Origin: a virus | Direction: 5' to 3' (one strand) | Virus record (IMG/VR): IMGVR_UViG_3300009156_000049 | Coordinates: 1 to 43,373 of that record | DNA length: 43,373 nucleotides | Shown: positions 25,752 to 38,306 of the stretch, one piece after another | Numbering within the stretch: position 1 is the stretch's first letter | How the letters are laid out: every line of letters begins with the position of its first letter | Notes under the pieces: generated by a model | What the model was told of the DNA's origin: nothing | What the model saw: only the letters and a program-made list of their open reading frames with translations | The model's database searches: none | Position numbers and translations under genes: made by a program

Positions 25752-26552
25752 ATGAACTTGACTGGATGGTCAGGCCTAGTTCAAAAGGCTAAGTTCTTGG
25801 TAGACGACAATCTACCTACTATCCTGACTGCAGTAGGTGTTACCGGAACAGTTACGACCGCGGTCTTGACAGGAAGGGCCTCGTTCAAGGCAGCTGAGCT
25901 GATCCGAAAAGAAGGTGTGCATCATGATCAATCCAACGGAGAGGTCGTCGACGCTCCTGAACTCTCGAACGCCGCTAAAGCCAAGCTGGTTTGGCATCTT
26001 TACTTGCCACCCGCTGCTGTGGGTGTCACCACAATTGCTAGCATTGTCATGGCGAATCGCGTTGCGTCGACGAGGCTAGCAGCTCTAACGGTTGCTTCCG
26101 CCTTGTCCGAGCGTCGTTTCCAGGAGTATCGCGATAAGGTAGCAGAGAAGTTCGGTGCCCGTGATGCCACCAAGATGCGGGACGAGATCGCACAGGAACG
26201 AGTTTTGAAGAATCCTCGTGATACTCGAGAGGTGATCATCGCTGGTTCGGGCGATGTGCTCTGCTATGACATGCTGACTGGGCGATATTTCATGAGCTCG
26301 GCCGAGAAGATCCGCAAGGCAGAGAATCGAATCAATCACGAGCTGAACAACTTCATGCATGCCAGCTTGACCGAGTTTTACGAGGAAGTTGGTCTGCCTC
26401 CAACCACCTATACCGACATGGTCGGTTGGCATGGCAACGACAATCTAGAAGTACAGATCTCGGCAGTAACCTCCGACGATGAGCGACCTTGTCTGGCAAT
26501 CGACTTCACTCCGCCGCCTAACTCTGAGTATCGACGCTCTCTGTACGATTGA
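25752..26552 (+). CDS. Large membrane protein, DUF6353-like (paralogue A)
   Basis: A 266-aa protein. Two hydrophobic segments, ~23-42 (TILTAVGVTGTVTTAVLTGR) and ~85-105 (PPAAVGVTTIASIVMANRV), are followed by a helical part (SERRFQEYRDKVAEKFGARD) and a soluble C-terminal domain with GSGDVLCYDMLTGRYFMSS and FYEEVGLPPTTYTDMVGW. The architecture matches the protein at 29341, so the two are paralogues of a family common in actinophages that I associate with DUF6353. Role unknown; the large soluble domain suggests a scaffold at the inner membrane. Confidence 0.75.
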   Translation: MNLTGWSGLVQKAKFLVDDNLPTILTAVGVTGTVTTAVLTGRASFKAAELIRKEGVHHDQSNGEVVDAPELSNAAKAKLVWHLYLPPAAVGVTTIASIVMANRVASTRLAALTVASALSERRFQEYRDKVAEKFGARDATKMRDEIAQERVLKNPRDTREVIIAGSGDVLCYDMLTGRYFMSSAEKIRKAENRINHELNNFMHASLTEFYEEVGLPPTTYTDMVGWHGNDNLEVQISAVTSDDERPCLAIDFTPPPNSEYRRSLYD

Positions 26553-26618: not shown

Positions 26619-26721
26619 CTCTAGGTGCGGGAGAGTTTCCGCGGGCTCGAGGCGAGACTAGAGTGTGTACGGTACGGCACCAAATAGAACCCGCTTTGCG
26701 ATGCACGGTGCTACGCGGTAC
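26619..26721 (+). ncRNA. Structured non-coding segment A
   Basis: Within the gene-free stretch 26553-26760. CTCTAG (26619-26624) pairs with CTAGAG (26658-26663) and encloses two hairpins: GCGGGA-gagt-TTCCGC (26627-26642, one G-T pair) and CTCG-agg-CGAG (26646-26656), a compact three-way junction. A second unit pairs GCACC (26677-26681) with GGTGC (26707-26711), with GTAC repeats outside it. No T-tract follows. It could be a leader of the small gene at 26761 or a separate RNA. Confidence 0.5.
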
Positions 26722-26760
26722 GCATAAATTTCGGAACCAATTATGAAAGGAATCACCCAT

Positions 26761-26883: not shown

Positions 26884-26910
26884 CAACAAGTTTTAGCATC
26901 TCGTGATAAA

Positions 26911-27280
26911 CAGAAACTAGCGAATGCTAGCGATTTCCCTGTACGGGTAGAGAGTTTTCACAGATGGGTCGAGGACTGGCAGCCATGCCAGGGAGAAGTC
27001 AGCGGGTGAGTAGCGGGACTTCACGAATTCAAGAGTGGTGAGGATAGACCTACATGACGATCCCGTTGGGATAGCAGGCGGTATGTAGGGAGTGTTGGGT
27101 GCCCTCCCCGGGAACAACTGCCTCACCCGAATATTAGTCCGCGTAATAGAAAGAGCCGACAAAACTCGAGTAGGCGCAACCCTCTCGGGACAACGCGGCT
27201 GCCTCGTTGCGGAGGAATGCGTAACTCAGACTGCTTAGCGGTCACTGAGAATGGGGCCGTATGGGTCCTCGCCGCGGACT
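26911..27280 (+). ncRNA. Large structured non-coding RNA candidate B
   Basis: No convincing gene lies in 26884-27310, but perfect inverted repeats are dense: CTAGC-gaat-GCTAG (26917), CTGGCA-gcca-TGCCAG (26976), GAAGTC/GACTTC (26995/27017), CCTACAT/ATGTAGG (27049/27083) enclosing ATCCC-gtt-GGGAT (27060), and GGGTGAG/CTCACCC (27004/27122), which would make a pseudoknot with the GAAGTC helix. A 3' domain is closed by AGTCCGCG/CGCGGACT (27136/27273) and holds CAACG/CGTTG (27191/27205), CTCAG-ACTGC-tta-GCGGT-ca-CTGAG (27225) and GGGCC/GGTCC (27254/27264). Size and complexity recall ornate phage RNAs such as GOLLD or ROOL, but I recognise no class signature. Confidence 0.65.
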
Positions 27281-27310
27281 AACAATTTGTTGCAATTAAG
27301 GAGTCAAGAT

Positions 27311-27337
27311 ATGCAGAATGTAGTATGGGGCGAGTAA
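27311..27337 (+). CDS. Possible 8-aa leader peptide
   Basis: AAGGAG at 27298-27303 is ideally placed for ATG 27311, which opens an eight-codon frame (MQNVVWGE) whose TAA overlaps ATG 27337 of the next gene. Translation of that gene may therefore depend on reinitiation. The alternative is that AAGGAG serves the in-frame ATG 27325 directly, at a poor distance of 21 bases. Confidence 0.35.
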   Translation: MQNVVWGE

Positions 27338-27558
27338 TGGGACATATTTATCTTTTCGGAGTTTCTATACCAGCATTCCTGATCGTCCGGTATCTCGTTA
27401 TGCGTCCACTGAGGAGCTATCTCAAGTACAGGCGTGATCAAAAAAGACAAGAGGATCAGCACTGGCAAGAGTGGTACGCAAAAATGGATGAAGATTATCC
27501 TTTTCTGCAAGACTTGACGAGAATATCGCGGGAGGCGCGGCAGAAAAGGGATCTCTAA
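27337..27558 (+). CDS. Small membrane protein with charged helix
   Basis: A 73-aa protein; ATG 27337 chosen because it overlaps the stop of the short upstream frame, with ATG 27325 as an alternative adding four residues. A hydrophobic helix (HIYLFGVSIPAFLIVRYLV) is followed by a strongly charged helix (YLKYRRDQKRQEDQHWQEW). One-pass membrane protein, probably with a cytoplasmic coiled tail. Function unknown. Confidence 0.65.
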   Translation: MGHIYLFGVSIPAFLIVRYLVMRPLRSYLKYRRDQKRQEDQHWQEWYAKMDEDYPFLQDLTRISREARQKRDL

Positions 27559-27569
27559 GAAAGGACCCT

Positions 27570-28106
27570 GTGCTCAAGAAGACGATTACGTACAAAGACT
27601 TCAACGAAGAGGAAGTCAGTGAAGACTTCTTCTTCCATTTGTCTAAGGCGGAATTAGTCGAGCTCGAGATGAGTCATAAAGGTGGTCTTTCAGCTGCGCT
27701 AGAACGAATCATCGCAGCTGAGGATAATCAAGGTATTATTGCCGAGTTCAAGAATATCATCTTAACAGCCTACGGCAAACGATCTGAGGATGGTAAGCGT
27801 TTCATCAAGAATCAAGAACTACGGGACGAATTCACCTCGACAGAGGCATATTCAACCTTGTTCATGGAGTTGGTCACGGATACAGACGCAGCCACCGCTT
27901 TTATCAATGGAATTATTCCCGCCGATATGATAGCAGAAGCTGAAAAGCTGGTAGCGGCTAATGCAGAAAAAGAGCGGACGCCTGTTGTGACGCCAATCAC
28001 AAAACCAGAGCTAGTTAGCAGGCAAGAACTGACAGCAATGCCGCAGGAGGATCTCGCGAAGATTGGAGCTCGCATTCAGGCTGGTGAAGTGGAGCTAGTA
28101 GATTAG
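27570..28106 (+). CDS. Tail-assembly-chaperone-like protein outside the tail region
   Basis: A 178-aa protein with GTG start after AAGAAAGGACC. The first ~115 residues (TITYKDFNEEEVSEDFFFHL, LSKAELVELEMS, IILTAYGKRSEDGKRFIKNQ, TEAYSTLFMELVTDTDAATA, FINGIIPADM) match a family often annotated as phage tail assembly chaperone. The C-terminal part is polar with PITKPELVSRQELTAMPQED. This phage already has a chaperone in its tail operon, so this copy in an accessory region is unexpected and may do something else. Confidence 0.6.
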   Translation: MLKKTITYKDFNEEEVSEDFFFHLSKAELVELEMSHKGGLSAALERIIAAEDNQGIIAEFKNIILTAYGKRSEDGKRFIKNQELRDEFTSTEAYSTLFMELVTDTDAATAFINGIIPADMIAEAEKLVAANAEKERTPVVTPITKPELVSRQELTAMPQEDLAKIGARIQAGEVELVD

Positions 28107-28109
28107 CAG

Positions 28110-28135
28110 CTCGCAGAGAAAACTCGGCCTATAAT
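28110..28135 (+). promoter_or_regulatory. CTCGCAGA-family promoter, copy 6
   Basis: CTCGCAGA at 28110-28117, twelve bases, TATAAT at 28130-28135 followed by GAAACC. Same spacing as copies 2 and 3. It begins four bases after the preceding stop and drives the gene at 28162. Confidence 0.72.
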
Positions 28136-29340: not shown

Positions 29341-30270
29341 ATGATGAAGCTCGTTCCGGGAGCGATCACGCAAAGGGTCGCCCGTGGTACGCTGCTCGCT
29401 CAGAAGAGCTCTCCAGGGCTTTTGCTCGGAGCGGGCATCGTCGGCGTGGGTGTAAGTACAGTTCTAGCTTGTCGTGCTACCCTAAAGATGGACGAAGTGT
29501 TGAACGAAGCGAAGGGTAAGGTCGAGCTGGCCAATACCCTTCAGCACGATGACTACAGCGATTTCGATCGTCGTCGAGATCTGCACGTCATTCGTGTCCA
29601 GACTGTCGTCATGATTGCCAGGCTGTATGCTCCGGCTGTCATTGTCGGCGGGCTCTCGATCGCTGCCCTGATGCGCTCTCATAACATTCTCACCAAGCGT
29701 AACGCAGCGTTGACAGCTGCCTATGCTGCTCTGGAGAAGGGATTTAACGAGTATCGCGCTCGTGTGGTATCCAAGTACGGAGAAGAAGAGGATCGAAACT
29801 TACGCTACGGAACTCGTGAGGTACCCGTAGTGGATCCAGAGACAAAAGAGAAGAAGATGATCACTCGAGTGGCGCCTGGAGAGCCCTCGATTTACGCTCG
29901 CTTCTTCGATCGAACTTGTGGATCCTGGAGTAAAGAACCAGAGTACAACCTGATCTTCCTCAAGGCCCAGCAGAATTGGGCCAACGATCTACTCCATGCT
30001 CGAGGTCATGTCTTCTTGAACGATGTCTACGACATGCTCGGGATGGAGCGCTCGACTGCAGGCGCCGTTGTTGGCTGGCTGTTGACTCGCGATGGCTCAA
30101 CCGACAATTTCGTCAGCTTCGGTGTATTCGAAGGTAAGACCGACAAGGCTCGAGACTTCGTGAATGGCTTCGAGGGATCGGTCCTGTGTGACTTCAATGT
30201 CGACGGGATTATCTACGACAAACTTGATAACGTTCCTAGGGAGGCACTGTCTTGGCAACGGAACAGGTAG
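29341..30270 (+). CDS. Large membrane protein, DUF6353-like (paralogue B)
   Basis: A 309-aa protein after CTAAGGAGTT (ATG 29341 or 29344). Hydrophobic segments at ~24-45 (SPGLLLGAGIVGVGVSTVLA) and ~92-113 (YAPAVIVGGLSIAALM) match those of paralogue A in spacing, as do the AAYAALEKGFNEYRARVVSK helix and the C-terminal DVYDMLGMERSTAGAVVGWL. It is larger, with an insertion near GTREVPVVDPETKEKK. Ends inside the next gene's start. Function unknown; likely acts at the inner membrane with neighbouring membrane proteins. Confidence 0.75.
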   Translation: MMKLVPGAITQRVARGTLLAQKSSPGLLLGAGIVGVGVSTVLACRATLKMDEVLNEAKGKVELANTLQHDDYSDFDRRRDLHVIRVQTVVMIARLYAPAVIVGGLSIAALMRSHNILTKRNAALTAAYAALEKGFNEYRARVVSKYGEEEDRNLRYGTREVPVVDPETKEKKMITRVAPGEPSIYARFFDRTCGSWSKEPEYNLIFLKAQQNWANDLLHARGHVFLNDVYDMLGMERSTAGAVVGWLLTRDGSTDNFVSFGVFEGKTDKARDFVNGFEGSVLCDFNVDGIIYDKLDNVPREALSWQRNR

Positions 30271-37676: not shown

Positions 37677-37890
37677 CGAAGCCTACGAGCGAGAACGAAA
37701 AATCGCCGAAGCAAAAACGGAGTTGTACGCTCAGCAAGAACGAGGTGAGTGGTCGGGCTTGATGGACACCAGTGGCTCCCCGATTTACACTTTGGCCGAG
37801 ATCGGTAATGCCGTGGTCAAGAGCCTCAGCGCCTGGGACCAAGAGGAGCTGAAAAACTGGCCACCTGAAGAATTAAGAGACCAAGATTAG
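37669..37890 (+). CDS. Small hypothetical protein
   Basis: A 73-aa protein; ATG 37669 overlaps the preceding stop and has AAGAGG upstream, preferred to a GTG at 37648. It starts ADEAYERERKIAEAKTELYA and ends LSAWDQEELKNWPPEELRDQ. Helical and acidic. The stop is followed by a gene-free structured stretch. Function unknown. Confidence 0.6.
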   Translation: MADEAYERERKIAEAKTELYAQQERGEWSGLMDTSGSPIYTLAEIGNAVVKSLSAWDQEELKNWPPEELRDQD

Positions 37891-37897
37891 CTTCGTG

Positions 37898-38145
37898 AGG
37901 GCTTGCGCCCCGAGGGTATTGCTAAGGACGACAAAATAACCAGTCTCTGCGAGGGCTGGTTCTAACAAATCGTCCGCCGTTGCAGCGGAAAGCGGAGCTA
38001 ACCCGACCGCGCGGAGCTAACAAATTTCCGGGAGCGCGCACCGCGAAAGCGGACAACACCAACCCGGAAAGGTCCGAGCTCCGGGACAGCACAGTCCAGG
38101 AAGACACCGGAGATAGGGTTCGATTCCCTATGTGCAGGACCACCA
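37898..38145 (+). ncRNA. Structured non-coding RNA candidate C with tRNA-like T-arm
   Basis: The gene-free stretch 37891-38306 starts with dense perfect inverted repeats: GGGC-ttgc-GCCC (37899), GGACGA/TCGTCC (37926/37970) enclosing AACCAG/CTGGTT (37938/37956), TTCCGGG/CCCGGAA (38026/38063) enclosing CCGC-gaaa-GCGG (38041), and CTCCGG/CCGGAG (38079/38107). Directly after comes TAGGG-TTCGATT-CCCTA (38114-38130), a perfect T-arm, then TGTGCAGGACCACCA. GCGGAGCTAAC occurs twice (37992, 38011). A normal tRNA cloverleaf cannot be completed. CTTGCGC (37902) could pair with GTGCAGG (38132) as a long-range acceptor-like stem. Class not recognised. Confidence 0.6.
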
Positions 38146-38174
38146 AGGGAGAAGACTCTGGCATAGGTCTTCAT

Positions 38175-38220
38175 CCCCTGCCGGTATGGAGAAGGACACT
38201 GCGGCGTCCTTTTTCAGGGG
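38175..38220 (+). terminator. Terminator-like hairpin downstream of RNA candidate C
   Basis: AAGGAC, loop ACTGCGGC, GTCCTT followed by TTT, enclosed by CCCCTG (38175-38180) and CAGGGG (38215-38220). The short T-run inside the outer stem makes either a terminator or a two-state structure possible. It is well placed to end the structured RNA at 37898. Confidence 0.6.
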
Positions 38221-38280
38221 AGACAGAGACACTTGACGCACCACCTAGGGGAGAGGGTGCTGAAAAGTGTCTTTGTCTCC
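38219..38280 (+). other. Long 16-bp hairpin before a gene
   Basis: GGAGACAGAGACACTT (38219-38234) pairs with AAGTGTCTTTGTCTCC (38265-38280), 16 bp with one G-T pair. Inside, GCACC (38238-38242) pairs with GGTGC (38256-38260). No T-tract follows; the gene at 38307 starts 26 bases later with its ribosome site outside the stem. It resembles an RNase III-type processing or 5'-protecting stem. Confidence 0.7.
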
Positions 38281-38306
38281 GCCGGTTATTTCGACGAAAG
38301 GAATTT

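Follow-up and report, generated by a model that had tools for sequence, protein, structure and literature searches.

A portable RNA domain with kissing hairpin loops at intergenic sites of uncultivated phages

The locus and its predicted folds

The window considered here is the complete 43,373-nucleotide stretch of the IMG/VR virus record IMGVR_UViG_3300009156_000049. Positions 26884-27310, which hold no plus-strand ORF of 60 aa and in which a conserved protein was looked for and none found, lie upstream of the gene for a tail assembly chaperone (27570-28106, Phage_TAC_17 in Pfam). Two membrane proteins of similar appearance are encoded at 25752-26552 (DUF6353 in Pfam) and 29341-30270, and by eye the second looks like a paralog of the first. 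Promoter-like repeats of the form CGCAGAAA..ACA..TATAAT precede tiny ORFs at 24391, 24571, 24752 and 28112, several of them with hairpin-T tracts nearby, and folding z-scores reach -5.3 in 24001-24800. The structured elements of this region and of a second locus near 38 kb are as follows, with the segments of the principal element, module B, given individually.

26640-26735, plus strand: module A, a conserved structured element (compensatory changes at 9 of 14 pairs in six sequences)
26884-27130, plus strand: 5' domain of the preliminary description, not supported as a conserved RNA part (no homologue, near-chance folding energy)
27134-27282, plus strand: module B copy 1, a four-way junction closed by P1 (homologues at 73-80% identity; CM R2 E 6e-20, with this copy in the training set; 96.4% of cells paired; MFE)
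27134-27143, plus strand: P1 5' strand TTAGTCCGCG, pairing with 27273-27282 (permutation over 26 members, 0/20,000)
27154-27158, plus strand: P2 5' strand AGCCG, pairing with CGGCT at 27196-27200
27165-27189, plus strand: P3 hairpin, stem 27165-27174/27181-27189 (MFE of several homologues)
27175-27180, plus strand: kissing loop L3, CGCAAC (98.6% of cells paired, 6 of 6 pairs changed on both sides; unbiased test 0/20,000)
27202-27215, plus strand: P4 hairpin, CCTC/GAGG (pair counts, helix 3 of the composite)
27206-27211, plus strand: kissing loop L4, GTTGCG, complementary to L3 (loop permutation and pair counts)
27219-27272, plus strand: P5 arm with a variable interior and a putative pairing of GCG 27219-27221 with CGC 27270-27272 (by eye across members; arm present in homologue MFE)
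27273-27282, plus strand: P1 3' strand CGCGGACTAA (P1 permutation test; MFE)
37887-38020, plus strand: module B copy 2, loops CUGCGA/UUGCAG (CM R1 E 2e-4, this copy being absent from R1; R2 E 1.7e-14, with the copy in the training set)
38024-38145, plus strand: modules C (about 38024-38070) and T (about 38071-38145, with a tRNA-like T-arm), after copy 2 (partial matches in relatives G002, G003 and G007)

The preliminary description had read 26884-27310 as a single, ornate noncoding RNA of about 400 nt in two domains, and this is borne out in part, in that the demonstrable RNA is the 3' half only. All the inverted repeats it named occur in the sequence where they were placed, and the perfect 8-bp helix that it saw closing the 3' domain (AGTCCGCG at 27136-27143 with CGCGGACT at 27273-27280) is P1 of module B. 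Its assertion that the density of helices exceeds chance is weakly true on the sequence alone: the region has 11 perfect stems of at least 6 bp against 7.8 expected, a number reached in 46 of 300 shuffles, and the minimum free energy of the whole 427 nt (z = -1.55) is equalled by 6 of 100. Scanned in 200-nt windows, the region gives z-scores of -0.8 to -1.6 and no outlier (genome mean -0.77, sd 1.19), and the 3' domain folded by itself gives z = -2.34, with 3 of 200 shuffles as low. On energy alone the finding would have stayed undecided, and it is the homologues, not the folding energy, that establish the reality of the 3' domain.

The 5' stretch, 26884-27130, has no homologue in any of the searched sets, including blastn against phages and plasmids and the contigs of relatives. 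Its halves fold with z-scores of -1.3 and -0.9, and it has a modest surplus of perfect stems (6 of 300 shuffles). On these grounds the pseudoknot proposed there is unsupported, even though its strands, GGGTGAG at 27004-27010 and CTCACCC at 27122-27128, are indeed so placed that their pairing would cross the hairpin GAAGTC/GACTTC (26995-27000/27019-27024). A contact of the pseudoknot type does exist elsewhere, at 27175-27180/27206-27211, as the previously unlisted kissing of the P3 and P4 loops. Together with a 40-aa membrane-like ORF, the 5' stretch separates module A from module B, two elements that are in direct contact in the relative G003; it could be a lineage-specific domain or else inserted sequence. 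Right after module B, at 27311-27339, an 8-codon leader ORF (MQNVVWGE) overlaps the start of the next gene (TAATG), an arrangement suggestive of translational coupling.

Homologues and covariation of module B

The region returned no blastn match against phages and plasmids. The chaperone gene at 27570-28106 brought in 53 IMG/VR loci, and homologues surfaced only on searching the complete contigs of the relatives, where three phages match positions 27130-27226 of the window with 78-80% identity (E 3e-13 to 3e-15), the alignment running on over a domain of about 150 nt (27133-27290). Contig coordinates, with circular permutation assumed for G012, place the element of those phages on the downstream side of the chaperone gene, at a distance of some 10-14 kb. 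A covariance model built from four sequences (R1) yielded eight more for the next alignment, and the resulting 12-sequence model (R2), into which the kissing pairs were not entered, gave matches outside its training set at E 1e-9 to 1e-18. The family now comprises about 30 members, every one of them from an uncultivated phage contig of IMG/VR, and a phage carries one copy or two; some of the contigs are near-duplicates. Fifteen named or deposited phages related by their DNA polymerase gave nothing convincing (best E 0.04), a pattern scan of 84,980 species genomes returned 78 stretches of which none was accepted, and 397 genomes from the phylum of an Actinomycetes MAG gave no match at E<=1e-4, this being a weak negative given the strict filters and the absence of a positive control. 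Several pattern matches were set aside as chance, namely L066 and L070 inside coding sequence of unrelated phages, L204 within an HflX-like gene, and L238/L240, which resemble translated repeats of phage coding sequence; L233, L235 and L236 are members of module A.

The common fold can be written as P1(P2(P3), P4, P5), with complementary 6-nt loops on P3 and P4 (CGCAAC/GUUGCG in copy 1) whose pairing is usually 6 bp. P1 ranges from 8 bp to nearly 30 bp among members, and in copy 2 it is formed by TTAGCTTCG/CGGAGCTAA. Three unpaired strands are near-constant, namely CAAA after P2, ACAAA before P2' and AA[A/C] after P4; since the family was found partly by patterns that fix conserved letters, the conservation of those letters is overstated. 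Positions 27134-27282 contain each of the elements by which module B is recognized, i.e., P2 with the CAAA/ACAAA strands, complementary P3/P4 loops and P1. The loop pairs of other members are diverse, including CGUAAC/GUUACG, CGUACA/UGUACG, CGUGGA/UCCACG, CUGCAA/UUGCAG, CUGCCA/UGGCAG and CUGGCA/UGCCAG, and further CUGCCG/CGGCAG, AGGCAC/GUGCCU, CGUUAC/GUAACG, CGCACA/UGUGCG, UGGCAU/AUGCCA and UGGCAA/UUGCCA. We make no claim from the differing loop codes of the two copies in one genome, which are expected by chance given this diversity. In three members (G009, G014, L138) the loops are not complementary, although P1, P2 and the constant strands are all present, and the kissing contact is therefore not indispensable.

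Several lines of evidence converge on this structure. Single-sequence folds of the window domain and three homologues give the same arrangement (z of -2.3, -4.3, -5.6 and -4.0), with P5 of the window copy drawn as two separate hairpins. Across a gap-free composite of P2, loops and P4 from 24 members, 96.4% of cells are paired against 67.1% when shuffled and 33-46% when slid, and 13 of 15 pairs have changed on both sides, although many contigs come from related phages and the independent events are fewer than the rows. The kissing helix shows 98.6% pairing and changes on both sides at all 6 pairs over these members; as the composite loops were picked as complementary hexamers, the permutation test is the unbiased one for this contact. 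In that test, the longest complementary run between the P3 and P4 regions averages 5.75 when both regions come from one molecule and 4.17 when they come from different ones, a value that none of 20,000 permutations reached, and the result is unchanged with one representative per loop class. For P1 the helix score is 35.2 within and 19.1 between molecules (0 of 20,000). P2 is represented by 12 different pairings over 28 members, with 4 of its 6 pairs changed on both sides. Finally, the gene strand has 18 G-U cells that the opposite strand would show as A-C, which argues for the gene strand as the functional one and for an element that acts as RNA rather than DNA.

Thus, the covariation check proposed at the outset is passed by the 3' half, the 5' half having no homologues to align, and the claim of a structured noncoding RNA holds for the 3' half while that of a single two-domain RNA of about 400 nt does not, homologues existing for the 3' half only. 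That the 427 gene-free bases carry just ordinary hairpins is a very remote prospect: energy and hairpin number in the window sequence are indeed near the shuffled range, and chance is still the best reading of 26884-27130, but covariation and independent covariance-model matches exclude it for 27134-27282. It is nearly certain that the latter stretch encodes, on the strand of the neighbouring genes, a discrete RNA domain with kissing P3/P4 loops that behaves as a portable cassette.

Mobility, companion modules and tRNA neighbours

The cassette behaviour is seen most directly next to the chaperone gene. In the relative G001, the chaperone stop codon is followed first by module B, complete with P1, and then by a promoter-like site, CGCAGAGAAAACTCGGCCTATAATG; in the window the same flanks are joined directly at 28106-28112 without module B, and in G008 two copies occupy the chaperone-gene junction. 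At the locus matching the 38 kb site of the window the downstream flank is common and the B type differs (CGUAAC in G003, CUGCGA in the window). At the site orthologous to 26884-27310, relatives carry other cargo, such as a collagen-like protein. Both the distance to the next gene and the size of that gene vary among loci; the next ORF often begins 50-120 nt downstream, and many copies lie directly upstream of a ribosome-binding site. By reading, the order of modules is A-B-C-D in G003, B-C-T-D at the 38 kb site of the window, C-T-D without B in G002 and B-T in G007, with modules C and D being weaker, as they rest on partial matches. Module B is accordingly a portable cassette: intergenic sites have gained or lost it, and it occurs in varying combination with other structured modules.

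A few features of these neighbours may be recorded in their own right. Module A has the conserved single strands CGAGGCGAGACTAGAG and GATGCAC within 26640-26735. Module T (38071-38145), which drew no ARAGORN call, combines a T-arm, AUAGGGUUCGAUUCCCUAU, with a loop GCACA complementary to UGUGC, and has counterparts in G002 and G007; no region of the window has a more extreme folding z than 38101-38300 (-5.74). The collagen-like protein of the closest relative (L001, 3839-4885) has GXX repeats and a signal-like start, and marks a variable cargo site.

Regarding tRNAs, the module B of G062 is flanked by two tRNA-Thr genes within an island of 22 tRNAs, and that of G064 is followed by tRNA-Leu; in G007 and the window, module B adjoins module T, the tRNA-like element. 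Over the stretches covered, the other checked loci show either no tRNA or more distant ones only, and ARAGORN calls no tRNA or tmRNA gene in the window. As most members are not near tRNAs, the link may be incidental.

Relation to known RNAs and possible functions

In line with the preliminary description, which saw no signature of a known class, Rfam gives no match to the whole window at the gathering threshold and no relevant match to the region or the G007 copy at relaxed E-values, even at E<=10; this covers the riboswitches, ribozymes, introns and sRNAs of Rfam 15. The ROOL and GOLLD covariance models likewise do not match the window, the region or the G007 copy. One paper reportedly lists many candidate structured RNAs of viruses and phages, and may include module B elements. 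Module B has no entry in Rfam 15 or in the literature consulted, and a large published list of candidate phage RNAs may still contain some of its members. In plan it recalls the purine riboswitches, in which a P1-closed junction bears two hairpins joined by a loop-loop contact, but it has a further arm, no sequence or Rfam match to them and no constant downstream gene. The putRNA of phage HK022 consists of two stem-loops, whereas module B is a four-way junction with kissing loops and has no consistent promoter-proximal position. Like module B, putRNA lies between phage genes; it is an antiterminator that acts in cis on the transcribing RNA polymerase for early genes, its fold being the active part (PMC9378689). 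ROOL and GOLLD are phage-encoded structured noncoding RNAs of no known function, often found near tRNA islands, in which kissing loops are central to the fold, and many GOLLDs exceed 800 nt (PMC12286853). Module B shares with them carriage by phages, kissing loops and, in G062 and G064 as opposed to most members, a tRNA setting. In contrast, it is about 100-230 nt long, has loops that are complementary within one molecule, and is portable and duplicated; ROOL and GOLLD are far larger and have Rfam models of their own that do not match module B. A further mark of ROOL and GOLLD is the RNA-only multimeric nanocage.

Taking these observations together, we tentatively favor, at somewhat below even odds, a reading in which module B works as a noncoding RNA whose junction strands bind a host or phage factor, with a biology resembling that of ROOL and GOLLD though not as a member of either family. 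Under this proposal the RNA itself, and no message, would be the product. Made as part of transcripts of phage operons or tRNA islands, it would adopt a compact and stable shape locked by the kissing loops, and its constant junction nucleotides would bind a factor, probably one of translation or RNA processing, as a scaffold or decoy. A noncoding RNA acting via its constant unpaired strands is preferred on account of the variable neighbours, of one copy that precedes a promoter-like site, and of the copies in a tRNA island or beside tRNA-like elements.

A cis-acting role, be it an exonuclease block or antitermination, is the main rival, since many copies lie just upstream of a gene. In the first form, module B would serve its adjoining gene as a stable intergenic knot in the mRNA that blocks exonucleases or insulates neighbouring transcripts. 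The intergenic, same-strand placement before variable neighbours, often with the next ORF 50-120 nt away, and the stability expected of a long P1 with kissing loops agree with this; however, the G001 copy precedes the next promoter-like site, the G062 copy sits in a tRNA island with no mRNA to protect, and a stabilizer has no obvious need of constant unpaired ACAAA strands, so that we regard it as unlikely. Less likely again is an RNA antiterminator acting on the transcribing polymerase. Such an element would be expected near a promoter and upstream of the terminators that it suppresses, and the position of module B relative to promoter-like sites varies. A promoter-like site close upstream is missing from many copies, and the architecture is unlike the two stem-loops of putRNA; while the G007 and G015 copies do lie near promoter-like sites followed by hairpin-T tracts, these tracts are upstream of module B and not downstream. 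What speaks for it is a phage-borne, cis-located and portable element for which a precedent exists (PMC9378689).

The compactness of module B, its junction with a pseudoknot-type contact, its constant unpaired nucleotides and its freedom from any fixed gene would also suit a small self-cleaving ribozyme of a new kind with a role in processing the transcripts of the phage. Yet no known ribozyme family matches, a cleavage-site signature is not obvious and three members dispense with the kissing loops; this reading is marginally more doubtful than the antiterminator. A riboswitch aptamer is the least probable of these functions and very improbable in itself: junctions with kissing loops are a common aptamer plan and some copies stand ahead of a ribosome-binding site, but neither a constant downstream gene nor an expression platform is seen, and other copies lie upstream of a promoter-like site or in a tRNA island. 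Going beyond the noncoding-RNA reading, modules A, B, C, T and D could conceivably be an exchangeable kit shuffled into composite noncoding RNAs, with B as the joint whose pairing within or between molecules yields RNA-only assemblies. This is speculative and rather unlikely; if true, it would amount to a shuffling of RNA domains much like that of protein domains by phages.

Irrespective of function, module B is a well-supported orphan family that joins the few structured RNAs known from phages. Its strong covariation signature permits direct searching and experiment, and, being small, it can be studied more readily than ROOL or GOLLD. The occupied and empty site, along with the shuffling of modules, suggests that RNA domains are exchanged as cargo among phages, and the copies in tRNA islands open a further way to ask why structured RNAs are kept beside phage tRNAs. 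In the 22-tRNA island itself (L249, 80-4264), gaps of about 500 nt between tRNAs may hold more structured RNAs, and a contig with two B copies (G059; L252, 3073-3387) also has a tmRNA and two tRNAs.
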